Source: Deltaproteobacteria bacterium (GTDB lineage: Bacteria; Myxococcota_A; UBA796; JAFGLY01). Taken from it: a stretch of DNA of 44,956 nt. Shown piece by piece: positions 2,073-24,005 of this stretch. The stretch is taken from contig JAFGLY010000054.1 of the NCBI GenBank assembly GCA_016927815.1, positions 1 to 44,956 of the forward strand, in the 5' to 3' direction. A program made the translations under genes and the position numbers. Position 1 is the first letter of the stretch; each line of letters starts with the position of its first letter. The notes under the pieces are model-generated. The model did no database searches and was not told the origin of the DNA. It worked only from the letters and a program-made list of their open reading frames with translations.

Positions 2073-2993
2073 TCAGGGGCGGTAGATGACCTCGATGCCC
2101 ACGTCCACGCTTGGCCCCCCGAAGAGGCGCTCCTCGTCGGCCTGGACGGCGAGGAGCCCACCGAGCCGGCGCAGGGCGGGCTCGACCTGCTCCAGGGTGT
2201 TCGCGGGCACCTTGAGCAGCACAGCGGCGTGGTTCTGCTCCACGCTCAAGGTCCAGGGCTCGACGGTCGTGCCCGAAGGGGTCACGAGCGTGCCCCCCAA
2301 CCGCTCCGCCAGGAGCGCGAGCGGACGGAGGACGTCGGGATCCGTAGGGTAGAGGCGGTACACGAACGGGCTGTCCAGGACGCCTGCGGCCCCGTCCGAG
2401 GCCTGTGCCGGCACGGCGTCCTCGCCCGCGGTGCCCAGCGTCTCCCATGCCGGGATGTAGGGGCTGGACGCCTTGGCCGGGGCGCGGGAGGGGGCCTCTT
2501 TGGCGGGGCGGGCCGGCGGTTCCTCTCGGGGCTCGGAAGCGAGGGCCTGGGGCGGCTCCGGGGCCTCGGGCATCTTCGCGGTTTCCGGGGGTTCGACCAC
2601 GGGCTCGGGCGCCGCGGCCTGCCGCGTGGGGGCCGGGGCGGGCGCCGGTTCGGGTTCCGGGAGACGCCAGATCACCCCCAGAACGATCGCTGCGATGGCA
2701 GCCACGCCGGCAGCCTGCACGGGGATCCGGCGCAGGAGGGCCTTCAGTCGGGTCAGCCAGGAAGCGGGCGAGGGCAGGGCCTCGACCGCGGACATCACCC
2801 TCATGTGGAACCGAGCCGGCGCAGCCAGGGGCCCGTGCGCGCGCAGGAAGGCCACGCTTCTACGCATCTCCTCCCAGGCCGCGCGCACCTCGTCGTTCTC
2901 CTCGATGGCGCGTGCCACCTCGGCGGCCTCGACCTCGGAGAGATCGCCGTCGAGGTAGGCAGAGAGCCGGTTCAGGGCGAAGAAGGCATCCAT
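2073..2993 (-). CDS. membrane anti-sigma factor, zinc-motif-free, with Pro/Ala linker and periplasmic domain
   Basis: 306 aa starting 2 bases after the ECF sigma gene, which is the usual position for its cognate anti-sigma factor. Residues 1-75 form a helical cytoplasmic domain (LSAYLDGDLSEVEAAEV...) resembling an anti-sigma domain, but the HxxxCxxC zinc motif is absent. A transmembrane helix spans about residues 92-110. A Pro/Ala/Glu-rich linker (about 112-190) follows, then a C-terminal domain beginning FVYRLYPTDPDVLRP, presumably periplasmic. Inference: it holds the sigma factor at the membrane until an envelope signal is sensed. ATG 2993 is fixed by the spacing from the sigma stop. Confidence 0.78.
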   Translation of the reverse strand: MDAFFALNRLSAYLDGDLSEVEAAEVARAIEENDEVRAAWEEMRRSVAFLRAHGPLAAPARFHMRVMSAVEALPSPASWLTRLKALLRRIPVQAAGVAAIAAIVLGVIWRLPEPEPAPAPAPTRQAAAPEPVVEPPETAKMPEAPEPPQALASEPREEPPARPAKEAPSRAPAKASSPYIPAWETLGTAGEDAVPAQASDGAAGVLDSPFVYRLYPTDPDVLRPLALLAERLGGTLVTPSGTTVEPWTLSVEQNHAAVLLKVPANTLEQVEPALRRLGGLLAVQADEERLFGGPSVDVGIEVIYRP

Positions 2994-2995
2994 CG

Positions 2996-3616
2996 TCAGA
3001 CCTTGACATCTCCTGGATCGATCCGGTTCCTCAAGACCCGGGCCAGCTCGGCGCGCGCCCGGTGGAGGCGACTCTTGACGGTCCCCCGGGGGAGATCCAG
3101 GATCGCGGCGATTTCGTCGTAATCCAGATCCTGGATGTCCCGGAGCACGATCACCTGGCGGTGCTCCTCGGAGAGCGCCTCGAGGCCCTGCCGGACGAGG
3201 GCCTCCGCGTGGCTCTGCTCCGCGCCCGCGTCGGCCCACGGACCGTCGGCTGCCACCTGGCGCTCGGGCCCCTCGTCCCACTGCGCGCCGTCGAGGGGCA
3301 CGTGGCGACCCCAGGCCCTCCGTTCACGGGACATTTTGCGGTTCTTGCAGTGATTCACGGTGATCCGGAAGATCCAGGTGGAGAGGCTCGACTCGCCGCG
3401 GAACCGATCGAGCGATCGATAGAGGGCCACGAACACCTCCTGGGCGGTGTCCTCGGCGCCGGCCCCGTCCCCGAGCCAGCGCAGGCAGAGCCCGTACACC
3501 CGATCCTGGTAGCGCCGGACCAGCGCGCTGAAGGCGTGCAGATCCCCGTCACGGATGCGGGCCACCAGGTTGTCGTCGGACGGGCCGCCCAGCACCGAGA
3601 GGATCGAGAGCAGCAT
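2996..3616 (-). CDS. ECF (RpoE-type) RNA polymerase sigma factor
   Basis: 206 aa, typical for a group 4 sigma factor. Region 2 is seen in FSALVRRYQDRVYGLCLRWL and AEDTAQEVFVALYRSLDRF, followed by STWIFRITVNHCKNRK. Region 4 is seen in LSEEHRQVIVLRDIQDLDYD and AAILDLPRGTVKSRLHRARA, the helix-turn-helix for the -35 box. GTG 3619 and ATG 3616 are adjacent; ATG is chosen, with GGAGG about 13-16 bases upstream. It follows the pentapeptide gene almost without a gap and precedes its likely anti-sigma gene by 2 bases. The target promoters cannot be read from this window. Confidence 0.93.
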   Translation of the reverse strand: MLLSILSVLGGPSDDNLVARIRDGDLHAFSALVRRYQDRVYGLCLRWLGDGAGAEDTAQEVFVALYRSLDRFRGESSLSTWIFRITVNHCKNRKMSRERRAWGRHVPLDGAQWDEGPERQVAADGPWADAGAEQSHAEALVRQGLEALSEEHRQVIVLRDIQDLDYDEIAAILDLPRGTVKSRLHRARAELARVLRNRIDPGDVKV

Positions 3617-5122: not shown

Positions 5123-6610
5123 ATGCACCCCCTCCGACAGGTCGGCCTCCTCGTCCGCTCCCGGTACGCCGTGCTCTACCTCCTCACCCACGAGGAGGCC
5201 CGCGTGGAGGAGGCCCTCTCGGTACAGGCGGCAGAAGAGGGGCTCGAGGTGTGGCGGTGGCGCTCGACCAGCGGCCTCGTGGGGCCCGGCGGCGAGCCGG
5301 TGGCCGGTACGACCCTCCCGGCCGCGGCCCTCCGCCACGTGCTGGGGGTGCCGGAACCCGCCCTGTTCCTCCTGGAGGACATGCACGACGAACTCGGCGA
5401 TCCCGGCGTCCGGCGCCTCGTACGGGATCTCGAGCCCGTGCTGGCCGCCCGGCGCCAGGCGCTCGTGCTCATTGCGCCGCGTCTCGTGCTGCCGGTCGAG
5501 CTGGAGAAGGACGTCGCGGTCCTGGACGTCCCGCTTCCCGACGAAGCGGACCTGGGCGCGCTGCTCGACGAGATCGCCGCACGGGAGGACCTCGACGTCG
5601 AGCCGGACGCCCGGGACCTGCTCGTTCGCTCGGCGCTCGGCCTGACGGCCCAGGAGGCTCGTCGCGCATTCTGGCGGACGCGCCACGCCGGGGGGTGCTT
5701 CACCGCGGCCGACGTGGCGTCCATCCAGGAGGAGAAGCGCCGGGCGCTCGGCCGGACCCGCTTCCTGGAGTACTGGGAGCGCCAGCGCACCCTGGAGGAT
5801 GTCGGAGGCCTGGACGTCCTCAAGGCGTGGCTCCAGGAACGGGCGGCCGCCTTCTCCGAGGAGGCCCGCGCCTTCGGCCTGCCCGTTCCCAGGGGCTTGT
5901 TCCTCCTGGGGGTCCAGGGGTGCGGCAAGTCGCTCATGGCCAAGGCGGTGGCGGGCCTCTGGCAGGTTCCGCTCTTGAGGCTCGACGTGGGTGCGGTGTT
6001 CCAGGTTCGCGAGCGGGCGGAGTCGGGCTTGAGGGAGACCATCCGCGTGGCCGAGAGCCTGGCTCCGGTGGTGCTCTGGATCGACGAACTCGAAAAGGGG
6101 TTTCTGGCCACCGCAGACGACCTCGGCGGCCGGGCCCTGGGGGACTTCCTCACCTGGATGCAGGAGAAGACCCTCCCCGTGTTCGTGGTGGCCACCGCCA
6201 ACGACGTCCGCATGCTCCCCCCGGAGTTGCTCCGCAAGGGACGCTTCGACGAGGTCTTCTTCGTGGACCTCCCGAACGTGCACGAGCGTCTGCGCATCCT
6301 GGAGATCCACCTCCGGAGCCGCGGCCGGGACCCGGATCGGTTCGACCTCACGGCGCTCGCCGAGGAGACCGAGCGGTTCTCGGGAGCCGAGATCGAGCAG
6401 GTGGTGGTCTCGGGCCTCTTTCTCGCCTTCGCCGCAAGCCGGGACCTCGAGGAGGAGGACCTCGTCCAGGTGATCCGGGACACCGTCCCGCTGGCGGTGA
6501 CCATGGACGACCGCCTCAAGGAGCTGCGGGAGTGGGCGCGTCCGCGGGCCCGGCGCGCCAGCGCGGACACCCGTCGCGTGGACTTCTTCGAGGACTGGCA
6601 CGAATCCTGA
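5123..6610 (+). CDS. Ycf46-like AAA+ ATPase
   Basis: 495 aa. The N-terminal 200 residues form an inactive-looking alpha/beta domain (LFLLEDMHDELGDPGVRRLV). They are followed by a AAA+ module with Walker A GVQGCGKS (about residue 265), Walker B VVLWIDELEK (about 315), sensor-1 VVATANDV and the arginine-finger region RKGRFDEVFF. This arrangement is that of the Ycf46 family of cyanobacteria and plastids, also present in other bacteria. The substrate is unknown. Start ATG 5123 has no Shine-Dalgarno sequence. Instead GGGCTAGGATC (5105-5115) puts a possible -10 (TAGGAT) eight bases before ATG, suggesting a leaderless transcript. Divergent from the ATP-grasp operon. Confidence 0.88.
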   Translation: MHPLRQVGLLVRSRYAVLYLLTHEEARVEEALSVQAAEEGLEVWRWRSTSGLVGPGGEPVAGTTLPAAALRHVLGVPEPALFLLEDMHDELGDPGVRRLVRDLEPVLAARRQALVLIAPRLVLPVELEKDVAVLDVPLPDEADLGALLDEIAAREDLDVEPDARDLLVRSALGLTAQEARRAFWRTRHAGGCFTAADVASIQEEKRRALGRTRFLEYWERQRTLEDVGGLDVLKAWLQERAAAFSEEARAFGLPVPRGLFLLGVQGCGKSLMAKAVAGLWQVPLLRLDVGAVFQVRERAESGLRETIRVAESLAPVVLWIDELEKGFLATADDLGGRALGDFLTWMQEKTLPVFVVATANDVRMLPPELLRKGRFDEVFFVDLPNVHERLRILEIHLRSRGRDPDRFDLTALAEETERFSGAEIEQVVVSGLFLAFAASRDLEEEDLVQVIRDTVPLAVTMDDRLKELREWARPRARRASADTRRVDFFEDWHES

Positions 6611-6783
6611 ATCGGGCGGCTCGCCGACTTGCATGGGAAGATAGGAGGGGAGTCGCCGGGTTGCACGATCGGACCTCATCCGGTTCGACGGGTGCGACCC
6701 CAGCCGGTACGTTCCCCCCCCGCCGCGACCCCGGCACAACCCCCCCCCGAAGACCGGACCTCCACCCCGACACGGTATCGCTC

Positions 6784-7926
6784 ATGAAGGCCCTCCCCAT
6801 CGCCATCCTCGGGTGCCTGGCCCTGCCCTGTGCGGCAGGTGCCGCCCCTGATAAGTGCGATCCTTTGCTCGAAGGCATCGATCAGCTGAGCGGAGAACCC
6901 CTCATCGCAGCCTACCAGAAGGTGATCGCCTGCGATCCCAAGGTGGCGCAGCAGGCCTTTCCCCAGTTCATGCGGATGGCCGGGGACGCCGACACCCTGG
7001 TCGCGCTCTCGCTCACCGCCATCGATGCGGACGTGTGGAATCCCGTCTGGGAGATGATCGGCAAGCTCTCGTCCTACGACGCCCGCGACGAGGTGGCCCT
7101 CCGTGTGGGATCCGCCTGCGCCACCGATCCCAAGGTCATCGGGTTCCTGCAGGGCGCCTACTTCAACTTGAGGGAGATCGACTTCCAGCAGTGGGACGAC
7201 GCCCTCCTCACCTGCGACGCCCCCGCGTTCGACGAGTGGCTCGTCCGCCAGGTGACCGACCCACCGCCCAAGGTCTACGACGACAAGTGGTCGGCCCTGG
7301 CCCACGCCGTCGTGAAGCGCAAGCAGCGGGACGCGCTCCCGCTGCTGGCCGAGGCCGCGGCCAAGGCTGCCCGCAACGGAGGGCCCTTCGAAGCCATCCT
7401 CATGTTGATGGAGGACGCCGTGGCGCCCGCGTGGGGCGAGGCCCTTCCCCCTGAGGATCGGGCCGCCCTCGAGTCCATCATGGTGGACATGGCCCGGGAT
7501 CTGGCCCCCGAGAAGGCGCGATCCGTCGCGGATCGCCTCACCGCCATGGGATCCGAGACACGGGCGGGCGGACTGCTCGGCGCGGTCTACCCGGGTCGCG
7601 AGATCGAGGGCGCCTTCTGGTACGGCGCGGCCGCGGTCGAGGCAGGCCAGTGCGGCAACCAGAAGCAGGCGATCGTGCACTTCTCCTTCGTGGTCAACCC
7701 CGCCACCTACTGGATCATCCTCCCGCACGTCCCGGAGCCCGCGCGCAGCGCCAAGCCCAAGCTCGTCAAGTGCAAGGTGGACGAGCCCTGGCCCGTGGCG
7801 TCCACCTCGGAGCCGTTCGCCTCCAAGGCCGACATCACGGCCTGGGTCGCAGAGATCGTCAAGGAGTGGGAGCAGAAGGGCTACGTCGTGAAGACGCGGG
7901 AGGAGAAGGACATCCCGCTCCCCTGA
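6784..7926 (+). CDS. secreted helical-repeat protein of unknown function
   Basis: 380 aa. A signal peptide is clear (MKALPIAILGCLALPCAAGA, cut near residue 20). The mature chain is mostly helical with HEAT-like spacing (DADTLVALSLTAIDADVWNP, KWSALAHAVVKRKQRDALPL) and has several cysteines that could pair in the periplasm (DKCDP, VIACDP, GSACATD, LLTCDAP, GQCGN, KCKVD). The C-terminus contains a predicted beta segment followed by a helix with WVAEIVKEWEQKGYVV. I do not recognise the family. ATG 6784 is chosen by the signal peptide. The 173 bases upstream (6611-6783) contain C-runs but no convincing promoter. Confidence 0.8.
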   Translation: MKALPIAILGCLALPCAAGAAPDKCDPLLEGIDQLSGEPLIAAYQKVIACDPKVAQQAFPQFMRMAGDADTLVALSLTAIDADVWNPVWEMIGKLSSYDARDEVALRVGSACATDPKVIGFLQGAYFNLREIDFQQWDDALLTCDAPAFDEWLVRQVTDPPPKVYDDKWSALAHAVVKRKQRDALPLLAEAAAKAARNGGPFEAILMLMEDAVAPAWGEALPPEDRAALESIMVDMARDLAPEKARSVADRLTAMGSETRAGGLLGAVYPGREIEGAFWYGAAAVEAGQCGNQKQAIVHFSFVVNPATYWIILPHVPEPARSAKPKLVKCKVDEPWPVASTSEPFASKADITAWVAEIVKEWEQKGYVVKTREEKDIPLP

Positions 7927-8117
7927 CGCGCCCCGGGGACGCTCGGATCCGGCGGCACGCATGCAGTACGGCTCCAGGCAGGCCCGGGTCGAGGGATGGG
8001 CCTGGGGTCCCTGGCGCAGGTCTTGCAGGAGGTCTGCCTGCCCCTGGTTCCCGCACCCTCCGATCCCACGATCCCACGCCGTTCCCCCTGCCGCCGCTGC
8101 CTGTCCGGAGTCTCGCC

Positions 8118-10006: not shown

Positions 10007-11002
10007 CTATCCTTCCCGCGGCGTGAACTCGAAGTCGATGTCCTCGCCCAGCTCCTGCTTGAGAAAGGCCAGGAGTTGGGAGCGGATACGCACCTCGATC
10101 TGGCGGATGCGTTCCTTGCTGACGCCGAAGCGCTCGCCCAGCACGGAGAGGCTCACGGGGTCCTGTGCCACCAAGCGCTCCTCCCAGATCACGCGCTCCC
10201 GCTCGTCCTGGAGGCCTGCCGCGAACGTGGCGAGTGCCTTCTGGACGATCCCACCCATCTGGCTCCGGGCCACGTCCAGCTCGGGGCTCCGGCCCGCCTC
10301 GTCTGCGATGACGTCGCCCAGGGTGCGACCCTCGCCGTCGCTTCCCACCGGGGAGTCGATGGACAGAGCCGGGGCCCGCATCTGCTGGTCCACGGCGATG
10401 ACCTCGCTCTCGGGCACCGAGAGGCGCTCGCCGATGAGGTGCGGATGGGGGGTGAGCCCCTCCTTGAGGAGGCGCTCGCGCTCCTTGCGGAGCTGGAAGA
10501 AGAGCTGCCGCGCAGCCCGCGTGCTGCCCAGGCGCACCAGGCGGTAGTTGTCCATGAGGAACCGCAGGATCATCGCCCGGATCCAGTACTGTGCGTACGA
10601 GGAGAAGCGGATCCCGCGGTAGGGGTCGTACCGGGACAGGGCCTGGACCAGCCCGACGTTGCCCTCCTGGATGAGATCGAGCACGTTGGACCACTGGCGA
10701 TGGTACTGAAAGGCCAGCTTCACCACGAGGCGGAGGTTGGCGGTGACCAGGCGCTCCCCGGCCTTGCGGTCTCCCTGCTCGTAGTAGGCCAGGGCGGCCT
10801 CCCGCTCCTCCTCGGGTGAGAGCAGCGGATAGCGTCGCAGCTCGGCGAGGTAGCGCCCGAGGAGATCGCGGCTGGCGACCTCGGCGGAGGGCAGGCGGAC
10901 CGGGAGGAGGCCGGCCTCCAGGGGGCGGCCGTTGGCGGGACCCATCGGGTCCTCGATCTCCGGGTCGCCTTCCAGGATCTCGGGTTCGTCGCTGCCATTC
11001 AT
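10007..11002 (-). CDS. rpoH: RNA polymerase sigma factor, sigma-32 (RpoH) type
   Basis: 331 aa. Region 2 is intact (NVLDLIQEGNVGLVQALSRY, RGIRFSSYAQYWIRAMILRF). It is followed by STRAARQLFFQLRKERERL, which corresponds to the RpoH box that distinguishes sigma-32 from other sigma-70 proteins. Region 4 ends in LGERFGVSKERIRQIEVRIR. It has an extra acidic N-terminus of about 45 residues. Proteobacterial RpoH directs heat-shock transcription; myxobacteria carry several RpoH-like paralogues with developmental roles, so the exact regulon is uncertain. Divergent from the CHAT lipoprotein gene across 126 bases (11003-11128), with no consensus promoter found. Confidence 0.88.
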   Translation of the reverse strand: MNGSDEPEILEGDPEIEDPMGPANGRPLEAGLLPVRLPSAEVASRDLLGRYLAELRRYPLLSPEEEREAALAYYEQGDRKAGERLVTANLRLVVKLAFQYHRQWSNVLDLIQEGNVGLVQALSRYDPYRGIRFSSYAQYWIRAMILRFLMDNYRLVRLGSTRAARQLFFQLRKERERLLKEGLTPHPHLIGERLSVPESEVIAVDQQMRAPALSIDSPVGSDGEGRTLGDVIADEAGRSPELDVARSQMGGIVQKALATFAAGLQDERERVIWEERLVAQDPVSLSVLGERFGVSKERIRQIEVRIRSQLLAFLKQELGEDIDFEFTPREG

Positions 11003-11128: not shown

Positions 11129-14100
11129 ATGTCCTCAAGGCTGGCCGTGGCGCTCCTGGGTCTGGGCCTCGCCGCGCCGGGGTGCCGCCGAGAGGAGCCG
11201 CCCGCACCCCTCGAGGCGGTCGAGCGTCCGGCCCCGCCGCCGGCGTCGGTCGTGGATCCGCTCGACGAGGCGCTCGCCAGGGCCGACGTCGGGGAGCATC
11301 GGGCGGCCCTGGCCGCCCTGGAGGTCCTTCTCCCGACCCGGGCCGACGACACCCTCGTCTGGGCCGCCCTCGAGCGGGAGGCCGTGGCCGCGGGTGCGGC
11401 CGGCGACCTCCTCGACCGGCTCTCCACGTCCCAGGCCGTGGGCGGGCAGCGCGCCCGGCACTTCGCGTTGAGGGCCGCGCTCGCGATCGAGGCCCGGCGG
11501 CCCGACCAGGCGATCGAGGCCGCCGACCTCCTCGCGACCGAGGATCCAGGCGCGGCCGCCGCCTTCCGCGCCTGGGCCGCCCAGGCCGGAGCGACACTCG
11601 AGGGTGCCACCCTGGACCCCACGATCCCCGCCGACGCGCTGGCCATCGCGGCCAGCGCCCGCGACGAGCGAACGCGAAGGGCCTCCTTCGAGACGGCACG
11701 GTCCGTTCCGGGCTGGAGGGCCGCCCTGCTGCGTGGCGAGCTGGCCCGGGCCGCGGGCGACGGGCCCGGCGTGGCGCGCGAGGTCGAGATCGCCCTGGCG
11801 GACCCGGATCCCCGCGCTCGCCTGGGAGGCCTGGCGCTCAGGCTGGAGGCGGCGGACGACCCGGCCCAGGTCGCTGCGGCCGCCCTCGAGGCGGCAAGGG
11901 CCGCAGCCGCGTGGCGTGCGGGCGAGGAGGCCGCCGGGTTCCTGGCCCGAGCGGTGGCGGCCGATCTGGCCCGATCGATGCCCGACGGTGCACTCCAGGC
12001 CGCACGCGAGCTGGTGTCGGCCCGACCCCTCGGGGACGATCCGGTGACCGCCCGCATGAAGGCCAGCCTGGCCGAGGTCGCGCTTCTGGCCGGCGAGGCC
12101 GAGGAGGCGCTCCACGCCAGCACCCATGCGCTCGCAGGCGAGATGCGGGAAGGCCCGCGACGCGACGCGGCCTGGAGCCTCGCACGGGCGGCCTGGCGCC
12201 TGTGCAGCCTCCCGGATGTGGAGGAGGCCATCCGGGCCCTGCCCGAGGCCGAAGCCGCGGTGGCCCGAGGGCTGGCCGCAGCCTGCGAGGGAGATGTCGT
12301 CACGGCCCGGAGCGTGCTCCAGCCCTCGGGCCTGCCGCCGGCCGTCGGCGTGGACGTGGCCCTGGCCCGCGCCCTGGCATGGATGGGCCGTCCCCAGGCG
12401 GTCGAGGCCGCCCGGCAGGCGGTGACGCTGGCCGACGAGGGTGGACGACCGGTCACCCGGGTGGAGGCTCGACTGGCCTTGGAACGCCACGCCCGGATCG
12501 CGGGGCAGCCGCGTGTTGCCGCGGAGGTCGTGGCCGATCTCGAGCGCATCGCTCCGACCCCCGCCATGCGGATGGAAGCCTGTGCCCGCCGCATGGCCCT
12601 CGGCCTCCCGGCCCCCCTCCCGCCGGCCGACCCGGACGAGCCCGCCCAGGCCACGGCCTGGCGTGCGTTCGGCGCGTCGGAGACCGGCGGCGGAGAGCCT
12701 CCGGCCGTGGCTGCCTGGGCCGCGGGCCGCCGGGCGCTCGGCCAGCGGGACTGGGCCGCGGCCGCCCGTTGGATCCGTGCCGCCATGGTCTCGCTTCCGG
12801 TGGCGCGGCAGGGCCGCTGGACCCCGCCTCTCGCACTCGACGGCGCGGACGGCCCGGCCTTCGATGCGGACGCGAAGGCCGCGGCGTCCGGTGTTGGGGA
12901 GGGTGCGGAGGACGTGATTCTCGCGCTCCACGAGTGGTCGCGCTTCCGCCAGCTCCAGCGCATCGGCGCTGCCGTGGGCGACGACTTCACGAGAGGCATG
13001 GACCCCGAGAAGGCCACCGCCTTCCGGGCCGCCTGGACGCGCGAGCACGCGCGATCGCTGATGTGGCTGGCGGGGACCGGCCCGTTCCCGCGGGAGGAGC
13101 GGGGCCGGACCGCCCAGGCGCTCGCAGCGGGGCGCAGGTGCGACCGCGCCCTGGGTACTCCCCCCTCGGCGGGGGCGCTCCGATCCCGATTTCCGGGTTT
13201 GGCCCTGATCTCCATTCGCCTGGGGGCGGCCGAGGGCGAGATGCTCGTCCTCACGCCCACGGCCAGCCGCCTGGTCTTGCTGGCGGATGCGGATGGGATC
13301 CGCCGCCTCGCCGTCGACTGGCGTGCCGCCCTCGAGCAGGGTCGGATCGCGACCGGCCAGCGGACCGACCCCGTTGCCGGCGATGCGCTCCGGGCGGCCA
13401 CCATCGACCGGGCCGGAGACATCCTGGCCGGGCTGCCCCACTACGTCCTCGCCCTGGACGCGGACCTCCTCCTCTTCCCCTGGTCCACTCTCCCGGAGCA
13501 GTCCGAGGGTCGGAGGTTCCTCGTGGACATCCGGACCATCGAGACCACGCTCCGGCTCGGCCCGCCCGCGCCGCCGCCCGCCGGCTACCGGATCGACTTC
13601 TACGGGACGGGAGAGGAGGAGACGGTCGTTCCCGCCCAGGCCTCGGGCGAGGCGATCGAGCCGGCGATCCTCGAAGAGGCCCCGCCCGCGCCGCTGCCTC
13701 GGACCGAGATTCCCTCCGTCGCGGGCCCGTTCCGGCGTGGGTACGTGGTGCTGAGGGAGGGTGCCGAGGCCAGCGCCGGCGACTACCGCGCCCACGCCGG
13801 GGGCGCCCGGTTCATCCACCTCGCCGGCCTGACAGCCGCGCCGGACGGTGGGCTCGCCTGGGCCACCAGCCGGCTCGCGCTGCCGGACCTGCGCTGCACC
13901 CCGCTCGACGCCCGGCTCGTCACGCTCTCGCGCCCGGTGGATCCGCTCCAGCAGGTGGCCCGGGCCCACGCGCTTCTCGACGCGGGCGCCCGGAGCGTCC
14001 TCGTCGCCCTGTGGGAGGTGCCCGAGCCGTTGGGCCTCCGCTACCTGACCGCGATGTACGAATCGTTGAGCCAGGACAGGCCGCCGGTGGGGGCCCTCCT

Positions 14101-14197
14101 CGAGGCCCGTCGTGCGCTCCGTTCCGACGAGGCGCTGGCGGAGGACATCGAGGATCCCTCCTCCTGGGGCGCGTACCTCCTCCTCGGGGTTCCGTGA
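11129..14197 (+). CDS. lipoprotein with helical repeats and a degenerate CHAT domain
   Basis: 1022 aa. MSSRLAVALLGLGLAAPGC is a lipoprotein signal with the lipid-bearing Cys at residue 19. Residues of about 30-640 are Ala-rich helical repeats of TPR type. The C-terminal 330 residues match a CHAT (caspase-HetF-associated with TPR) domain: LLLFPWSTLPEQ, RFIHLAGLTAAP, LVTLSRPVDP, DAGARSVLVALWEVPE, SSWGAYLLLGVP. The catalytic His expected two positions after HLA is Leu901, and the Cys of the LSAC motif is Pro936, so protease activity is unlikely. ATG 11129 has GGGAG upstream. The stop overlaps the next start (GTGA), so it is probably translated with the RHS protein. Confidence 0.87.
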   Translation: MSSRLAVALLGLGLAAPGCRREEPPAPLEAVERPAPPPASVVDPLDEALARADVGEHRAALAALEVLLPTRADDTLVWAALEREAVAAGAAGDLLDRLSTSQAVGGQRARHFALRAALAIEARRPDQAIEAADLLATEDPGAAAAFRAWAAQAGATLEGATLDPTIPADALAIAASARDERTRRASFETARSVPGWRAALLRGELARAAGDGPGVAREVEIALADPDPRARLGGLALRLEAADDPAQVAAAALEAARAAAAWRAGEEAAGFLARAVAADLARSMPDGALQAARELVSARPLGDDPVTARMKASLAEVALLAGEAEEALHASTHALAGEMREGPRRDAAWSLARAAWRLCSLPDVEEAIRALPEAEAAVARGLAAACEGDVVTARSVLQPSGLPPAVGVDVALARALAWMGRPQAVEAARQAVTLADEGGRPVTRVEARLALERHARIAGQPRVAAEVVADLERIAPTPAMRMEACARRMALGLPAPLPPADPDEPAQATAWRAFGASETGGGEPPAVAAWAAGRRALGQRDWAAAARWIRAAMVSLPVARQGRWTPPLALDGADGPAFDADAKAAASGVGEGAEDVILALHEWSRFRQLQRIGAAVGDDFTRGMDPEKATAFRAAWTREHARSLMWLAGTGPFPREERGRTAQALAAGRRCDRALGTPPSAGALRSRFPGLALISIRLGAAEGEMLVLTPTASRLVLLADADGIRRLAVDWRAALEQGRIATGQRTDPVAGDALRAATIDRAGDILAGLPHYVLALDADLLLFPWSTLPEQSEGRRFLVDIRTIETTLRLGPPAPPPAGYRIDFYGTGEEETVVPAQASGEAIEPAILEEAPPAPLPRTEIPSVAGPFRRGYVVLREGAEASAGDYRAHAGGARFIHLAGLTAAPDGGLAWATSRLALPDLRCTPLDARLVTLSRPVDPLQQVARAHALLDAGARSVLVALWEVPEPLGLRYLTAMYESLSQDRPPVGALLEARRALRSDEALAEDIEDPSSWGAYLLLGVP

Positions 14198-17100
14198 TCC
14201 GGGTCCTTCCCGTCCTCCTGGGGTCCGCCTTGGCCGCGCCGCTGCTCGGCCCGGACGGCCCGCTCGTGCTCGGTCCGCTGACCGGACCGCCGCCCGCGGT
14301 GGATCCCGCCGCCGGCCGAGGACACGTCGGGGTGGATCCTCAGGACGGAAGCCTTGTCGTCAGCGTGGTGGACCTCGTGATCCCGGGGGAACCGGATCCA
14401 TTCGTGCTCGGTCGAGCGTGGTCCGACGACGGCTGGGAGTGGCTGGGGCTCGACCGGGTTTTCGAAGACCCGGCCGGCGCCCGCCTCGTGGCGCCCGGCC
14501 GGGACTCGGAGCGCCTGGAGGCGCCCCGACCCCGCACCACCGGTGCCTGGCCCGTGGGGACCCGCCTCACCGGGCAAGGGCACCGGACGCTCGAGCGGAC
14601 GGCGGACGGGTGGATCCTGGATCGGGGGAGCGGCTGCACCGAGGCCTTCGATCCGGACGGTCGGATGCTGGCCCGGGACGGCTGCCCGGAAGCCCTCCTC
14701 CGGGCCGAGTGGCGGGAGGGTGCCCTCGTGGCCCTCGCCCTGCCCGACGGCCGCCGGGTGGGGTTCACCGACGCACCGGCCCCCGAGGCCGGGGGCCTCG
14801 TGCGGCGGGCTCGAGGGCCCGCAGGTCTCGAGGCCCGCTACGAGGAGCAGGGCGGACGGCTCACCCTGGCGCGGACCGCCGCAGGGGTCCAGCACCGGTA
14901 CCTGTACGATCGAGCCGGGCGGATCCAGACCATCCTCTGGCCGGATGGCGCCCGGTGCCTGGTGGCTCGGGATCCGGATGGGCGGGTCGCGGACCTGTCC
15001 GGACCGGGCCCGGCCCGGTGGCGGTTCGCGTGGGGGCCCGAGGGGCTCGAGACGGCCTGGGACGGCCGAGAGTCCCCCTGGAAGGTCGACCGCCAGCCGG
15101 GCGTGGTGGCGGTCACGGACCCCTCGGGTCGTACCGCCCGCCTCGAGCACGACCAGGCGCGGGTGACGGGATGGGTGGATCCAGCGGGTGGACGCACGCG
15201 GGTGCTGCGCGATCCGAGCGGGACGATCACCGGGATCGAGGCCCCGGGCCCGGAGCGGTGGGCGCTCCGGCTCGGCGCGACCGGGCACGTCGTGGAGACG
15301 ACCGATCCGGCCGGGCAGCCCTGGCGGGTGGATCGCGATGCCATGGGACGGGTCGTGCGCCGGGTGGGGCCCGACGGTCGAATCGTGCGCTGGCTGAGAG
15401 ACGCTGGCGGTGCGGTCGTGGAGATCCTGCAGGGCGACGAGCGCGTGAGGCTGGGCCGGGACGGGGCGGGCCGGTTGGTGGACGTGCGCGTGGGCGCCGG
15501 GCCCGCCACCCGGGTGGAGCGGGATGCGGCCGGCCGGATCGCGGCGGTGCAGGATCCGTCGGGCGGGCGGACGATCCTGGCCGGAAGGCGCTCGATCCTG
15601 CCGGGCACCGCGACCGGTCCAGATGGCCAGGTCTGGGCTTTCTCCGTCGGATCGCTGGGACTTCCCGTTGGCCTGGAGGTTCCGGGTGGGGTGCGTCTCG
15701 AGTGGCGGTGCGGCCCATCGGGCGCGCTCGCCGAGGTCCACCGGGGCAGTGCACGGACGCGGGTGAGCACGGACGCCGATGGCCGTCCCACGCGGGTCGA
15801 GGATGCCTTCGGCCGCGTGACCGGCTGGACCTGGGACCGGGCGGGTCGCCTCGTGGCCTGGCTGGGGGGAGACGGGTCCCGCCTGGACGTGGGGCGCGAT
15901 GCACGGGGGGACGTGACGTCGCTCGCCTGGGAGGACGTGCGCCTCGCACTGTTACGGGACGCACAGGGCCGCCTCCGCGCGATCGCCCACGAGGCCGGGG
16001 ACAGGCTCCTGGCCGTGGGGCGGGACGCCCGGGGAGCGGTGGTCGAGATGACCTGGAAGACCGGGCGGCTCGGCCTCGGGCGCGATGCCGCCCGACGGGT
16101 GGAACGAGTGGTCCTGGGCGATCGGGAGTGGCGCCTCGAGCACGACGCTGCGGCCCGGCTCGTGGGCGTGGTGGAGGGCTCGGAGCGATGGGTGCTCGAG
16201 CGGGATCCTGGCGGCCTGGTCGCGGCCGTCGAAGGTCCGGACCTCGCCTGGCGCCTGGACCGGGGTCCGTGTGGGGGGGTGGATCGGTTCGAGGCGGGCG
16301 GTCTCGCGCTTCGCTTCGGACGCAGCGCGAGCGGCCAGGTGCTCCGGATCTCGGGTCCGTCCGGGGCGGTCCTGGGCCTCGACCGGGATCCGGCTGGCCG
16401 ACCGGTGACCGTGCGCTTTCCGGACGGCGAGCTCCTCCGCATCCGGCAGGCGGGCGCGAGCGTGGCCCTCGCCTGGGAGGACGCGCGGGGGCACGCAACC
16501 GGAGACGTACGGCTCGAGGTCGACGCGTCGGGTCGACTCGTCTCGGTGCAGGACGGATCCCAGGAGCGTCGGTACCGCTACGGACCGCGGGACGAGGTGG
16601 TGGCCGTGGAGGAGGGCGACGGGGCCTGGTCGCTGCTCCCGGGCCTCCTGGAGACCCCAACGGGCGCGCAGCTCCCCCTCGCAACGGGGGGTCCTGCCCA
16701 GGACGGGCTCGTGCCGGGACCGGTGGCCGCCTGGGGCCTGGCCGGGACCAAGGTGGCCTGGCGGCGCGATCCCGACGGCGGGCTCCTCGGCGTGGAGGGC
16801 GAGGCCGGCGCCGTCCGTCTCACCCACGATCCGCTGGGCCGCCTCCTCGAGGTGGTGTTTCAGGCCGCCGGCGAGCCGGACCGCACCTGGTGCCTCGACT
16901 GGGACCCGCTGGGCGGCCTCCGGTCCGTCGGGAGCCCTGAGGGTCGTACCGACGTCGTCACGGCACTTGGCGGGATCCGGGTCCTGTCCGATGGGAAACG
17001 CCGGGCCGTGGTCCTCGACGGACCCTACGGAACGCGCGTGATCGCGGGGCCGGAGGGCCGGGTGTCGCTTTCGGGAGACGGCCTGCTCGGACCCGGAGGC

Positions 17101-17688
17101 CGGATCGGCGAGCCGAGGGTACGGAGCGCGCCCGGCGGCCTGCCGGACGGGATCGTACCGGGTCCCTTCGGCGCCTTCGGCCGCTTTCAGCTCTTCTGTG
17201 GGGGCCCCCTCGTGGGTCCCCAGGACGCCCTGGATCCCGTGACCGGCCAGCCCACCGGGGCTCCGCCCGTGCGCTGGCCCTGGAGCCCCACGGGTTGGCC
17301 CCGACCGGACGTGCCGCTCCTGTGGCCGGAGCCGGACGGCGTCGCCCAGGTGGCGTGGGATCCCGAGGCCTGGAGCCCCGAGCAGCCCTGGGCGTCCCCG
17401 CTCGCGATCCTGGTTGCCCTGGGCGAGATCGAACCAGAAGCACCGACCTTCCAGGCAGAGGATCCCGTCGCACCCCTGCCTTGGCTCCCGGCCGGTCTCG
17501 CGGACCCACCCCCAGGATGGCCCCTCGCGGTGGATCCGGTCACCGCGGTCTTCCTCCGCGCGGCGATCCGGCCCTGCCGACCGGTCTCGGAGGCGGCCCT
17601 GCTCGACGCGCTCCTCGGCGACCTCGTGGCCGCCCTGCCCCGGCCGGTCCCCGGCCTGCCCTGGCCGGCCGGCCTGCCCCAGCCGTGA
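14194..17688 (+). CDS. secreted RHS/YD-repeat protein
   Basis: 1164 aa starting at GTG 14194, overlapping the CHAT gene stop. The N-terminus MIRVLPVLLGSALAAP is signal-like, and residues 50-110 resemble the DUF6531-type RHS entry (GSLVVSVVDLVIPGEPDPFV). At least fifteen imperfect YD-type repeats follow. One has the classic Tyr (YDRAGRIQTILWPDG, about residue 240); the rest begin R-D, W-D or H-D (RDAMGRVVRRVGPDG, WDRAGRLVAWLGGDG). Near residue 995 GRFQLFCGGPLVGPQDALDP replaces the usual end-of-shell signature. The last 160 residues are Pro/Trp-rich with no recognisable toxin domain. It is probably a beta-cocoon surface protein working with the CHAT lipoprotein. Confidence 0.85.
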   Translation: MIRVLPVLLGSALAAPLLGPDGPLVLGPLTGPPPAVDPAAGRGHVGVDPQDGSLVVSVVDLVIPGEPDPFVLGRAWSDDGWEWLGLDRVFEDPAGARLVAPGRDSERLEAPRPRTTGAWPVGTRLTGQGHRTLERTADGWILDRGSGCTEAFDPDGRMLARDGCPEALLRAEWREGALVALALPDGRRVGFTDAPAPEAGGLVRRARGPAGLEARYEEQGGRLTLARTAAGVQHRYLYDRAGRIQTILWPDGARCLVARDPDGRVADLSGPGPARWRFAWGPEGLETAWDGRESPWKVDRQPGVVAVTDPSGRTARLEHDQARVTGWVDPAGGRTRVLRDPSGTITGIEAPGPERWALRLGATGHVVETTDPAGQPWRVDRDAMGRVVRRVGPDGRIVRWLRDAGGAVVEILQGDERVRLGRDGAGRLVDVRVGAGPATRVERDAAGRIAAVQDPSGGRTILAGRRSILPGTATGPDGQVWAFSVGSLGLPVGLEVPGGVRLEWRCGPSGALAEVHRGSARTRVSTDADGRPTRVEDAFGRVTGWTWDRAGRLVAWLGGDGSRLDVGRDARGDVTSLAWEDVRLALLRDAQGRLRAIAHEAGDRLLAVGRDARGAVVEMTWKTGRLGLGRDAARRVERVVLGDREWRLEHDAAARLVGVVEGSERWVLERDPGGLVAAVEGPDLAWRLDRGPCGGVDRFEAGGLALRFGRSASGQVLRISGPSGAVLGLDRDPAGRPVTVRFPDGELLRIRQAGASVALAWEDARGHATGDVRLEVDASGRLVSVQDGSQERRYRYGPRDEVVAVEEGDGAWSLLPGLLETPTGAQLPLATGGPAQDGLVPGPVAAWGLAGTKVAWRRDPDGGLLGVEGEAGAVRLTHDPLGRLLEVVFQAAGEPDRTWCLDWDPLGGLRSVGSPEGRTDVVTALGGIRVLSDGKRRAVVLDGPYGTRVIAGPEGRVSLSGDGLLGPGGRIGEPRVRSAPGGLPDGIVPGPFGAFGRFQLFCGGPLVGPQDALDPVTGQPTGAPPVRWPWSPTGWPRPDVPLLWPEPDGVAQVAWDPEAWSPEQPWASPLAILVALGEIEPEAPTFQAEDPVAPLPWLPAGLADPPPGWPLAVDPVTAVFLRAAIRPCRPVSEAALLDALLGDLVAALPRPVPGLPWPAGLPQP

Positions 17689-17802: not shown

Positions 17803-17879
17803 GTGAGTGTAGCTCAGTTGGTTAGAGTGCCAGGTTGTGGCCCTGGAGGTCGTGGGTTCGACTCCCATCACTCACCCCA
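17803..17879 (+). tRNA. tRNA-His (anticodon GTG)
   Basis: Seven-base acceptor stem GTGAGTG/CACTCAC (17803-17809 with 17869-17875). The anticodon loop gives GTG after TT. The T arm GTGGGTTCGACTCCCAT and D arm GCTCAGTTGGTTAGAGT are normal. A G at 17802 faces the discriminator C at 17876, the extra G-1:C73 pair specific to tRNA-His. CCA is encoded (17877-17879). Confidence 0.96.
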
Positions 17880-17901
17880 TTGCCGCGGACCTTCACATGG
17901 T

Positions 17902-17975
17902 GGGCTCATAGCTCAACTAGGCAGAGCAACGGACTCTTAATCCGCAGGTTGGAGGTTCGATTCCTCCTGAGCCCA
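17902..17975 (+). tRNA. tRNA-Lys (anticodon CTT)
   Basis: Acceptor stem GGGCTCA/TGAGCCC (17902-17908 with 17968-17974), discriminator A. The anticodon loop CTCTTAA gives CTT. T arm GGAGGTTCGATTCCTCC. CCA is not encoded. It lies 22 bases after tRNA-His and is probably on the same transcript. Confidence 0.95.
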
Positions 17976-18056
17976 CTCCCCCCTTCCTTCCCGGCAGTGC
18001 GTCCCGCCGCCCGGACGTGCCGCCCCGGCCGACCCGGTCGCCCCGCCGGGCGACGA

Positions 18057-18137
18057 GCGAGAATGGCGGAATGGCAGACGCGCCGGACTTAGGATCCGGT
18101 GGGGCAACCCGTGGGGGTTCGAATCCCCCTTCTCGCA
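18057..18137 (+). tRNA. tRNA-Leu (anticodon TAG)
   Basis: Acceptor stem GCGAGAA/TTCTCGC (18057-18063 with 18130-18136), discriminator A. The anticodon loop CTTAGGA gives TAG. The variable arm is long (TGGGGCAACCCGT), as expected for a class II leucine tRNA. CCA is not encoded. It sits 38 bases upstream of the tig start. Confidence 0.95.
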
Positions 18138-18175
18138 TTCTTCCACCAGCCCCGCAGCACGCACGGATGGAGAGC

Positions 18176-19609
18176 ATGAAAACCCAGGTCGAACGCCTCG
18201 GTGACGTCACCCGGCGCATCCACTTCGAGGTCTCGGCGGAGCGCATCCGCAGCGAGATGGACGCCTCCTACCGAAAGCTCAAGGGGCGGGTGCGGCTCCC
18301 CGGGTTCCGACCGGGCAAGGTCCCGCGGGAGGTCCTCGAGTTGCGCTACAGCCGCCAGGTGCGGGCCGAGGTCGTGTCCTCGCTGGTGCAGGAGGGGTGG
18401 GAGGAGGTCCAGCCCGACCTCCGGGTGCAGGGACGTCCCCAGGTGGAGGAGGGTTCCTTCGATCCGGGCACGGGCTTCACGTTCACCATCACCGTCGAGG
18501 TCAAGCCCGATCTCCAGGTCGAGGACTACCGCGGCCTCGAGGTCACCTGGCCGGAGGTGGAGGTGTCCCAGGATCAGGTCGAGGCCGCCCTGCGCAAGCG
18601 CCTCGAGCAGGCGTCCCGCATCGTAGAGGCGCCAGCCGACGCCGTGGTGGGGCCCGGCCACATCGCCATCGCCGAGGTCCTGCTCAAGGACGGCGAGGAG
18701 GAGGTAGCGCACGAGATCGGCACCGCGGTCCGCATCGGCCAGGATCCCTACCTGCCGGGCGTGGACGACCTTCTCCAGGGCCTGGCCCGCGGCGGAGAGC
18801 GGGAGGGCGAGGTTCGGATCCACGACACGAGCGAACTCGAGTCCTTGAAGGGCCGCACGCTCCAGGCCTACGTCAAGATCCACGACATCCACGAGACCCG
18901 GGCCCCGGAACTGTCCGACGAGGTCGCCCGGGAGCTCGGCTTCGAGGGCGGTGCGAGCGCCCTGCGGGACGCCGTCCGCGAGGAGGTCCGCCGGCCCCTG
19001 GAGGAGCGGGCCCGGCACACCGCACGCCAGTCGCTGCTCAGGCAGATCGTGGACGCGCATCCCATCGAGGTCCCGAAATCCCAGTGGGACCAGCAGACCG
19101 AACTGCTCGTGCTGGAGCGCAAGGTGCTCCACCAGTACGCGGGCCATGCACCGGGCACCCTCGACCTGGGCCCCGAGGTGATGGCCCAGATCCGCGACCG
19201 GGCGCTCTACGCCACCCGCGCCTCGCTCCTGCTCGAAGCCATCGCCGGCCAGGAAGGGATCACGGTCTCCGAGGACGACATGGAGCGCGCCTACCAGCGC
19301 ATCGCCGACGAGCGAGGCCAGCGGGTGGAGGCCATCAAGGGCTACCTGCAGCGCGAGGAGGGTGCAGTGGACACGCTGCGCCTGAGGCTGCTCGAGGAGA
19401 AGTCCCTGGACTGGCTCCTGGAGCAGGCCAGGCCCAAGGGCGATGCGCCCGCCGCGGAACCGCCGGCCGAGGCCCCGGAGAAGAAGCGGGCCACCCGGGC
19501 GAAGAAGCCTGCCCCGGAGGCTGCTGCCCCGGAGGCCGAGGCGCCCAGGAAGAAGCGCGCGCCACGGGCCAAGAAGGCTGCGACGGAGCCCGAGGGAGGC
19601 CAGGAGTAG
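18176..19609 (+). CDS. tig: trigger factor (ribosome-associated chaperone)
   Basis: 477 aa. Trigger factor binds the ribosomal exit tunnel and shields nascent chains. The ribosome-binding signature GFRPGKVP is at residues 43-50, followed by a PPIase-like central region ([30 protein letters not shown]) and the helical C-terminal chaperone domain. Start ATG 18176 has GGAG just upstream; an in-frame ATG at 18167 would add three residues. Residues of about 419-477 are an unusual Lys/Ala/Pro tail ([20 protein letters not shown] and a second [12 protein letters not shown]) resembling histone H1 tails, beyond the normal end of the family. First gene of the tig-clpP-clpX-lon block. Confidence 0.95.
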
Positions 19610-19665
19610 CCCGCACGCCCTGCGTGTCGTGGGTTACGACGCTTTCCCCACCGGAGGTGAGAGCC

Positions 19666-20280
19666 GTGCCTAGCGACCGCGCCGAGTACTACATCCCCTT
19701 CGTCGTCGAGCAGAGCCATCGCGGCGAGCGCTCGTACGACATCTACTCCCGGCTGCTCAAGGACCGCATCGTTTTTTTGGGCACCGGTGTGGACGACCCG
19801 GTCTCCAACGTCGTGGTGGCCCAACTGCTCTTCCTCGACAGCGAGGATCCCGAGAAGGACATCTTCCTGTACATCAACTCGCCGGGCGGCTCCATCACCG
19901 CGGGCATGGCCATCTACGACACCATGCACTACGTCCGGGCACCGGTGAGCACCATCTGCGTGGGGCAGGCCGCGTCCATGGGTGCAGTGCTGCTGGCTGC
20001 CGGTACTCCGGGCAAGCGCCGAGCCCTCCCGCACGCCCGGATCCTGATCCACCAGCCCATCGGCGGGTACCAGGGCCAGGCCGCCGACGTGGAGATCCAT
20101 GCCCGGGAGATGCGCCGGGTGCGGGAGGTCATGAACAAGGTGCTGGCCGAGACCACCGGGCAGCCCCTGGAGCGGATCGCCCAGGACACCGACCGCGACC
20201 ACATCATGGATGCCGAACAGGCACTCGCCTACGGGATCATCGATGAGATCATCCAGCCCAGGAACCGCCCTCCGGAGTAG
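19666..20280 (+). CDS. clpP: ATP-dependent Clp protease proteolytic subunit
   Basis: 204 aa serine peptidase that forms two stacked heptameric rings and degrades proteins fed by ClpX. The triad is readable: Ser104 in GQAASMGA, His129 in ILIHQPIGG and Asp178 in DTDRDHIMD. The N-terminus [20 protein letters not shown] is canonical. GTG 19666 is chosen because GGAGGTGA lies just before it and it yields the right family length. It follows tig by 56 bases and precedes clpX by 42. Confidence 0.97.
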
Positions 20281-20322
20281 ACTGGGGTCGTTCCGGGAGA
20301 ACCGCCTGGCCGAGGAGATGCC

Positions 20323-21569
<1,247 letters not shown>

Positions 21570-21579
<10 letters not shown>

Positions 21580-24005
21580 AGTCCAAGGGAAGCGTGTTCT
21601 CCCGCGACCGAAGGGACGGCGGGGAGGCCCCGACGGTGCTGCCCCTCCTGCCTCTGCGCAACCTGGTGCTCTTTCCCGGCCAGGCCGTCCCGCTCATCGT
21701 GGGACGGGACAAGTCCATGCGGGCCGTCCAGGCGGCGTCGGGCCCGATCAAGATGTTGCTCCTGGTCACCCAGAGGGACGCCCAGGTCGTGGACCCCGAG
21801 CCGGACGGCATCTACGAGGTCGGCACCATTGGTCTCGTCGTGCAGGCGCTCAGTCTGCCCGACGGCACCATGCGGGTGCTCGTGGAGGGGCAGCAGCGTG
21901 CGCGCGTGGTGCGCGTGCTGGAAACCGACCCCTCCTTCCAGGCCGAGGTGCGCCCTATCGAGGAGGCACCCGTGGAGGGCGCCGAGATCGAGGCCCTGGT
22001 CCGCTCCGTCAAGGAGGCGTTCGAGGGGTACCAGAGCCTGGCCCGCAGCCTCCCGGCCGAGACGACGGCAGCCATCGCCGCGGTGGAGGATGCGTGCCGC
22101 CTCGCGGATCTGCTCGCCTATCGGCTCTCCTTGAAGATCGAGGAGCAGCAGGCGCTCCTCGAGGAGGTCTCCTGTCGCCTCCGCCTGGAGCGGCTGCTCA
22201 AGCACCTCCAGTCGGAGATCGAGATCCTCCAGGTCGAGCGCAAGATCAAGAGCCGCGTCCGCAAGCAGATCGAGCGCACCCAGAAGGAGTACTACTTAAA
22301 CGAGCGGATGCAGGCGATCCAGCGGGAGCTCGGTGAGAAGGACGAGTTTCGCTCGGAGATCACCGAACTCGAGGAGCGGGCGGCCAAGGTCCGACTTTCC
22401 CCGGAGGCCGAGGAGAAGGTCCAGCGGGAGATCCGCAAGCTGAAGCTCATGCCCCCGATGTCGGCGGAGGCCACGGTCGTCCGCAACTACATCGATTGGG
22501 TGCTCTCGCTGCCCTGGCAGGACTACACCCAGGATCTCCTCGACATCGAGGCGGCCCGGCAGGTGCTCGACGAGGATCACTACGGCTTGAGGAAGGTCAA
22601 GAACCGCATCCTCGAGTACCTGGCCGTGGCCCGCCTCGTGGAGGATCGCAAGGGACCCATCCTGTGCCTCGTCGGGCCGCCCGGGGTCGGCAAGACCTCG
22701 CTCGCCCGGTCCATCGCGCGGGCCACGGGTCGCCGGTTCGTGCGGCAGGCGCTCGGCGGCGTGAGGGACGAGGCCGAGATCCGCGGCCACCGTCGCACCT
22801 ACATCGGGGCCCTTCCCGGAAAGATCCTCCAGTGCATCCGCAAGGCCGGATCCTCCAACCCGGTCTTTTTGCTGGACGAGGTGGACAAGATGTCCATGGA
22901 CTTCCGGGGCGACCCGTCGGCTGCCCTGCTCGAGGTCCTGGATCCTGAGCAGAACCATACCTTCAACGACCATTACCTGGAGATGGACTACGATCTGTCT
23001 CACGTGATGTTCATCTGCACCGCCAACACCGTGGAGGGCATCCCGCCAGCGCTGGTGGACCGGCTCGAGATCCTCCGCATCGCGGGGTACACCGAGGCCG
23101 AGAAGCTGGCCATCGCCCGGAAATACCTCTGGCCGAAACAGATGGCGGCCAGCGGCATCACCGCCGACCAGCTCGTCCTCACCCGAGAGGCGGTCCAGAC
23201 CATCGTCCGCTCCTACACCAAGGAGGCGGGCGTCCGGAACCTGGAACGGGAGATCGCCACGATCTGCCGAAAGGTGGCCCGGCGCGTGGTGGAGGAGGGC
23301 GACGGGTTCCACGCGCGGATCACCCGAGCCAACCTCGGCGCCGTGCTGGGGGTGCCCCGCTACCTCGATCACACGGTCGAGGACCGGGACCTCGTGGGAC
23401 TCGTACACGGGCTCGCGGTGACCTCCTGGGGCGGGGAGACCCTCCAGGTGGAGGTGGCCGTGGTCCCGGGCAAGGGCAACCTCGTGCTCACGGGTCTTCT
23501 CGGGGACTGGCTCAAGGAGTCCGCCACCGCGGCCTTCACGTATGTCCGGTCCCGCGCCGAGCGGCTCGGGATCGCGCCGGACTTCCACGAGAAGAACGAC
23601 TTCCACATCCACTACCCGGGCAACGCCGTCCGTACCGACGGCCCGTCGGCGGGCGTCACCATGGCCACGGCCCTGGTGTCCGCGCTCACGGGCATCCCGG
23701 TGCGCCGGGACGTGGCCATGACCGGCGAGATCTCTCTTCGAGGACGGGTATTGCCGATCGGCGGGCTGAAGGAGAAGACGCTGGCCGCCCACCGCCAGGG
23801 CATCGTCCGCGTGCTCGTGCCCGATCGCAACCTGAAGGATCTGCCCGAAATCCCCAAGGCCGTGCGGGACGCCGTCGAGATCGTGGCAGTGGCCCACATG
23901 GACGACGTCCTGCGCCTGGCGCTCGTGCTGGACGATCCCGATCTCCTCTTCCGGCAGGAGGGGATCTTCGAGGGTCCTGCCGGGGACCCGGCCGTCCCCG
24001 TGTGA
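21570..24005 (+). CDS. lon: ATP-dependent protease La (Lon)
   Basis: 811 aa. An N-terminal substrate-binding domain ([19 protein letters not shown]) is followed by a coiled region, the AAA+ module with Walker [10 protein letters not shown] (about residue 370) and FLLDEVDKM, and the protease domain with the Ser-Lys dyad: Ser693 in DGPSAGVTM and Lys736 in [10 protein letters not shown], 43 residues apart as in E. coli. ATG 21570 lies inside the end of clpX. Lon removes damaged and short-lived regulatory proteins; in myxobacteria Lon paralogues also affect development. Followed by tRNA-Val after a fresh promoter. Confidence 0.97.

Follow-up and report, generated by a model that had tools for sequence, protein, structure and literature searches.

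CHAT and Rhs proteins are usually interpreted as conflict or defence proteases and toxin carriers. Here we describe two adjacent genes, encoding a predicted CHAT lipoprotein and a predicted secreted RHS/YD-repeat protein, in a 44,956-nucleotide contig (JAFGLY010000054.1 of assembly GCA_016927815.1; this whole stretch is referred to below as the window) from a Deltaproteobacteria bacterium of the Myxococcota_A, and compare them with the closest described systems. We put at roughly 0.6 the probability that the two genes are part of an envelope module that is specific to the order, inherited vertically and composed of catalytically disarmed conflict-type and signalling folds.

Structural relatives of the CHAT protein were identified by fold comparison (Foldseek). 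One of them is Csx29, the tetratricopeptide repeat (TPR)-CHAT protease of type III-E CRISPR (Craspase), which likewise has an alpha-solenoid followed by a CHAT domain (E 2e-7 to 5e-6). Csx29 is an active protease found with a CRISPR effector; residues H615 and C658, the counterparts of the CHAT dyad, are needed, and it cleaves Csx30, a binder of CASP-sigma (PMC10028731). In contrast, the window CHAT protein has an export signal, has lost both catalytic columns and lacks a CRISPR partner; no Cas gene that would indicate a Cas7-11/gRAMP association as in Craspase is present in the neighbourhood read, and PADLOC was negative for the CHAT and RHS proteins alike, assigning neither to a defence family. 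The top structural match is separase (E 3e-10), which also combines a solenoid with a caspase-fold domain but is a eukaryotic active protease of chromosome segregation, with a whole-length TM-score to the window CHAT protein of only 0.26.

DdvA of Myxococcus xanthus (PDB 8rw5, 8rot) is also among the top matches (E 3.9e-9) and is membrane-linked, acting as a transmembrane anti-sigma factor for the extracytoplasmic function sigma factor DdvS (PMC4374960). The window CHAT protein differs from it in being a predicted lipoprotein encoded next to an RpoH-like sigma gene and followed by an RHS gene, and it has no DdvA-type cytoplasmic anti-sigma domain and transmembrane segment, its N-terminus being a signal with a lipobox. 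Elsewhere in the window genome (contig C22, locus L065) there is a CHAT protein gene (5689-8067, +) whose product has an HxxxCxxC N-terminus resembling a zinc anti-sigma domain and catalytic residues that look intact (LLHLGLHA, LLSGCTT), together with a 294-residue open reading frame (2615-3499, +) with a second HxxxCxxC-type N-terminus and a divergent sigma-70 gene (904-2127, -); from their sequences these genes look like a DdvA-like sigma/anti-sigma-CHAT set.

The RHS protein has its counterparts in the Rhs effectors of type VI secretion systems (RhsA, Rhs1/Tre23, Advenella VgrG-Rhs and Salmonella bongori Rhs) and in teneurins, with which it shares a closed YD-repeat beta shell (best TM-score 0.66/0.74). 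Unlike the effectors, it has a Sec-type signal peptide in place of PAAR or VgrG parts, and it is without a C-terminal autoprotease motif, a variable toxin or an immunity gene. Pfam, NCBIfam, PADLOC and the open literature searched contained no described system that combines exported CHAT and RHS proteins, nor was there precedent in these libraries and this literature for the CHAT-RHS pairing, its catalytic loss or its order-wide locus. A preliminary description of the window, made from its sequence, had proposed an assembly not covered by known CHAT or RHS systems; this holds for the combination and not for a membrane-linked CHAT protein, as the fold match to DdvA suggests a precedent for CHAT-like proteins linked to membranes.

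The gene pair and its distribution

The two genes and their principal features are as follows.

11129..14197, forward strand: CHAT lipoprotein gene (ATG start, 1022 amino acids; predicted lipoprotein signal, alpha-solenoid at ~44-690, CHAT domain at 767-1020)
11183-11185, forward strand: codon of Cys19, the lipobox cysteine of the CHAT lipoprotein
13427..14188, forward strand: CHAT domain (Pfam match; both catalytic columns substituted)
13829-13831, forward strand: codon of Leu901, in the CHAT His column (profile alignment with canonical CHAT proteins)
13934-13936, forward strand: codon of Pro936, in the CHAT Cys column (same alignment)
14194..14197, forward strand: GTGA, the RHS start codon overlapping the CHAT stop codon (from the sequence; overlaps or short gaps in relatives)
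14194..17688, forward strand: predicted exported RHS/YD-repeat gene (GTG start, 1164 amino acids; signal peptide at ~1-15, LLGPxG motif, closed Rhs-type beta shell to ~960, fixed C-terminal region)
17110..17685, forward strand: RHS C-terminal region (order-conserved DPxSGQ, WDPxxW, PWxDPLxLL and GLPWLPAS; essentially confined to the order)

The preliminary description had claimed a 4-base overlap at 14194 and export signals on both products, and both are borne out: the GTGA is present at 14194-14197, and the lipobox of the CHAT protein and the signal peptide of the RHS protein recur in relatives. It had also proposed a search for the pair in other genomes, and among 58 genomes of the order (the window genome included) an adjacent same-strand pair is carried by 30 relatives beyond the window (29 counted plus locus L051); the relative at L007 is Deltaproteobacteria bacterium UBA2957. 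The pair is thus not unique to one genome, and because it recurs in 30 others, the pair and its export signals are not due to chance. Pair-bearing genomes fall in families f1, f2, f4, f5 and f6 (four other families and the sister genus of the window genome); the loci of G014, G009, G019 and G048 are interrupted by contig ends. CHAT homologues are present in 33 of the 58 genomes and RHS homologues in 37, two of the latter being weak and in the sister family f3, where none of 18 genomes has the pair. Among 284 genomes of the phylum, full-length CHAT homologues are confined to the order; the matches outside it are partial, most of them to stretches of CHAT or helical repeats. In the same set the RHS C-terminal region is found in 30 genomes of the order and elsewhere as only two weak partial matches.

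In a tree of tig the families cluster and f3 forms one group (90/96), which may branch either before or after f5; the pair may accordingly have been lost in f3 or gained later. The GC content of the pair genes is 0.76-0.77 against 0.72 in the window, and a lateral island was considered and rejected, since the genes are syntenic across families.

Pairwise distances for CHAT and RHS are correlated (r 0.95), and when tig is controlled for the partial r is 0.69, a value reached in none of 5000 permutations; partial r of either protein with clpX, clpP or lon is 0.23-0.38. The values for sigma (0.56 and 0.80) come from five shared genomes only and are unusable as a control. The CHAT and RHS proteins evolve in step beyond tig, and overlap or close spacing of the two frames is common in relatives.

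The CHAT lipoprotein

The CHAT product begins with MSSRLAVALLGLGLAAPGC|RREE, a slightly irregular lipobox with proline at -2, and clean lipoboxes are present in orthologs (SILCATGC, LALSLLGC, LALCATAC and VGFVVGC). In a 22-row alignment, conservation of Cys19 is 90% or more. The protein therefore has the N-terminal signal and lipobox cysteine that define a lipoprotein, and is predicted to be lipidated; a cytoplasmic location, which the preliminary description had regarded as counting against its reading, is not what the N-terminus predicts. The CHAT domain (PF12770) is matched by Pfam at residues 767-1020 (E 6.9e-14, 52.4 bits against a cut-off of 24), and an AlphaFold2 model from 22 sequences (pLDDT 86.6, pTM 0.84) has a run of alpha-helical hairpins at ~44-690 followed by an alpha/beta CHAT domain. 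Of the 'CHAT/TPR' architecture initially proposed, the CHAT part is confirmed by Pfam and the model, and the TPR part has no Pfam match, though the model has an alpha-helical solenoid. A phmmer search against the PDB gave no match, and a profile search gave generic repeat proteins only.

The catalytic columns were located by profile alignment to other CHAT proteins of the phylum; with plain BLASTP, the CHAT domains of the window protein and of an intact-dyad paralog do not align. Leu901 replaces the catalytic histidine and Pro936 the catalytic cysteine, and no ortholog in the 22-row alignment has both catalytic residues, with a cysteine near the expected site in one and a histidine in one. The HxATHG motif is degraded in orthologs to forms such as H-L-A-G-L-T and LSAC to forms such as L-S-R-P, and there is no invariant histidine or cysteine anywhere in the CHAT domain of the 22 sequences, whereas canonical CHAT proteins of the phylum retain the dyad on the same profile (e.g. 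L122, ADVLHFATHG...LVTLSAC). With both columns lost in all aligned orthologs, the protein is a predicted pseudo-protease that keeps the sequence and fold of the family with its His-Cys dyad gone, and the protease implied by the 'CHAT' label is not upheld. The best-conserved stretches are residues 751-800 (LPEQxxGxRxLADIR) and 101-150 in the early solenoid and do not include the catalytic sites, a pattern expected of a binding protein.

The RHS protein

The RHS product begins with (M)IRVLPVLLGSALA|APLLGPDG, a short predicted signal peptide followed by an LLGPxG..LGP motif that is conserved throughout the order. It matches RHS_repeat (E 5e-36) and YD_repeat (1.8e-38), and its model from 23 sequences (pLDDT 81.7, pTM 0.83) is a long run of beta-hairpins that best fits Rhs cocoons (8qja, TM-score as given above), such that the protein is predicted to have a closed Rhs/YD shell.

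Known Rhs toxins end their shell with PxxxxDPxGL, bearing two catalytic aspartates, and continue into a variable toxin with a linked immunity gene (PMC8765631, PMC8636562). The autoprotease motif is missing from the C-terminal part of the window protein, where DPxGL occurs once only, mid-shell at residue 671; a DPxxG is present near the end at 1014-1018, and some orthologs have glutamate for its aspartate. Across all pair-bearing families the last ~200 residues can be aligned and are not variable, and residues 1051-1100 are the best-conserved block of the protein. This region is rich in proline, tryptophan and glycine and has no invariant catalytic-type residue except one aspartate. No immunity gene is linked to the RHS gene, as its stop at 17688 is followed next by tRNA-His at 17803, and a tRNA is next after RHS in most relatives with tRNAs read. 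Of 11 pair-bearing genomes, 9, among them that of the window, have no type VI sheath gene (VipA). By these features the RHS protein appears disarmed and ends in a fixed region where a toxin would stand. The 'RHS-type shell' of the preliminary description thus stands as a predicted closed shell and falls in the usual sense of a shell around a toxin.

Three copies of an 18-bp GC-rich repeat lie at the extreme 3' end of the RHS gene (17628-17685), and the window genome has a second, short cluster of RHS-repeat matches in a 393-residue open frame (G000:C106:59320-60159). In nine loci (L032, L041, L043, L044, L045, L051, L052, L054 and L055) a CTG of the RHS frame coincides with the CHAT stop (CTGA), in the same register as the window GTGA, and several of them have no ATG, GTG or TTG that preserves the signal peptide; from the sequences, CUG starts under translational coupling are possible.

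The pseudokinase and flanking genes

The preliminary description had dealt with the two genes; to these we add an RpoH-like sigma gene, a pseudokinase in relatives and a tRNA-tig-clpPX-lon segment. The conserved order is an inositol monophosphatase (IMPase) gene and the RpoH-like sigma gene (divergent), pseudokinase, CHAT, RHS, tRNA-His/Lys/Leu, tig, clpP, clpX and lon, with different genes after RHS, clpP or tig in some members of f2 and f3. The neighbours in the window are as follows.

10007..11002, reverse strand: divergent sigma-70 family gene (best match RpoH, 219 bits, under the curated cut-off of 323; a conserved neighbour, also in f3)
17803..18137, forward strand: tRNA-His, tRNA-Lys and tRNA-Leu, downstream of RHS in conserved order
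18167..24005, forward strand: tig, clpP, clpX and lon, conserved downstream proteostasis genes

In most relatives a gene for a transmembrane pseudokinase (cluster 6) is located upstream of CHAT. Its products are ~600-860 amino acids in well-called cases, with a kinase-like N-terminus, a proline-rich linker, one transmembrane helix, a Pro/Ala stalk and a four-cysteine C-terminal domain, and one of them reaches Pfam PF07714 (E 2.3e-5). All 11 aligned rows lack the Lys, HRD and DFG of active kinases: the beta-3 lysine is arginine, HRD is HPG-like (one row further off) and DFG is xG(F/L/V). Only 126 bases separate the sigma start from the CHAT start in the window. On contig C190 of the window genome (L087, 7693-9813, +) is a Ser/Thr kinase with intact HRD and DFG and the plan of the pseudokinase family (proline-rich linker, transmembrane segment and four-cysteine C-terminal domain), the last 121 residues of which have no match in 14 relatives; it was rejected as the lost pseudokinase of this genome, as its motifs are intact and it is not syntenic.

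Two f3 loci (L104 and L106) have a pseudokinase without CHAT-RHS. L104 (G013) is a clean empty site, with 114 bp from the pseudokinase stop (10774) to tRNA-His (10888) at the position of CHAT-RHS in the others. Just upstream of tig, and on the opposite strand, L049 (3315-4004, -), L103 and L107 encode a conserved protein of ~230 amino acids (cluster 13); it fills the position of the missing RHS gene in L049 and adjoins RHS in L056 and L061.

Proposed role and alternative explanations

The module is most likely a non-enzymatic part of the envelope, a scaffold or sensor, rather than a weapon. This reading draws on the sequences and their export signals, on the lost catalytic motifs, and on conservation, synteny and correlated evolution, from which we infer physical contact between the two proteins, a location in the periplasm or at the surface, and the scaffold or sensor role. 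The CHAT lipoprotein would be exported and lipid-anchored, its long alpha-solenoid and inactive CHAT domain acting as a binding scaffold and not as a protease, and the RHS protein, exported via its signal peptide, would fold to a closed Rhs shell with a fixed C-terminal region instead of a toxin. Both proteins are probably translated from a single coupled transcript and are likely to bind each other or a common partner, and in most relatives the transmembrane pseudokinase, with its extracytoplasmic four-cysteine head, may connect the module to the cytoplasm. What the pair itself displays is export signals, and the surface assembly initially suggested is putative. A bolder version is an undescribed order-wide envelope machine built wholly of disarmed kin of weapons and signalling enzymes: a pseudokinase would span the membrane, joined by a pseudo-caspase lipoprotein and, outside, by an Rhs shell that is empty or holds a fixed cargo, and the machine might report to the neighbouring RpoH-like sigma factor and proteostasis genes. 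This version is tentative and somewhat doubtful.

Several observations weigh against the module as proposed. One genome (G031, L049) has CHAT and no RHS, another (G033, L063) lacks CHAT and has the pseudokinase directly followed by RHS, f3 is without both genes, and the window genome has no pseudokinase at this locus, so that no part of the module is indispensable. The window lipobox has its proline at -2, in many relatives it is uncertain which codon starts RHS, CTG being the only one that fits, and conserved synteny alone could account for part of the neighbourhood. Given the single losses in G031 and G033, a loose partnership fits better than an obligate complex, and we regard CHAT and RHS as a loose module whose members may form a physical complex. 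Those losses, together with the synteny of the entire neighbourhood in slowly rearranging genomes, would also suit two exported proteins that settled as neighbours by chance and share no function; this seems improbable to us given that both genes are missing from an otherwise intact locus in f3, that their frames overlap or nearly so, and that their rate correlation is well above the values for clpX, clpP and lon.

If the RHS and CHAT proteins instead sensed an envelope or contact signal and, by way of the pseudokinase or a different membrane kinase, relayed it to the RpoH-like sigma factor and thence to tig-clpP-clpX-lon, the conserved sigma and proteostasis neighbours would be explained; CHAT proteins control sigma factors elsewhere, as with Csx29/Csx30 (PMC10028731) and the anti-sigma factor DdvA, and the C190 membrane kinase has intact motifs and a similar four-cysteine end. 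Such a stress sensor is nonetheless unlikely. The f3 genomes have the sigma-tRNA-tig order without CHAT-RHS, and the neighbourhood therefore predates or outlives the pair, for which reason we rate this role lower; no member was found to contain a sigma-binding domain, and tig-clpPX-lon is a common gene order in bacteria. The closed shell, and the toxins carried by most characterised Rhs proteins (PMC8765631, PMC8636562), would fit a cocoon whose C-terminal ~200 residues are a fixed, unrecognised toxin with the CHAT lipoprotein as carrier or immunity protein. That too is improbable with no C-terminal DPxGL, a region conserved across families with a single invariant catalytic-type aspartate, a tRNA gene directly after RHS, hence no downstream immunity gene, and no type VI sheath gene in 9 of 11 genomes; the reading as a type VI toxin was rejected. 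The retained CHAT fold might still harbour a protease with displaced catalytic residues that processes RHS, and a separated protease-substrate pair would account for the coupling, but with no conserved nucleophile or base in either column and no invariant histidine or cysteine across the domain an active pair of this kind was rejected and is highly improbable.

In the proposed envelope module, CHAT, Rhs and pseudokinase folds that have shed their catalytic or toxic part have been passed down at a housekeeping locus over the depth of a whole order, and automated pipelines that call them 'CHAT protease' or 'Rhs toxin' would mislabel whole lineages. If its members act together, the module would be a clear case of conflict proteins that have become envelope architecture or sensing.

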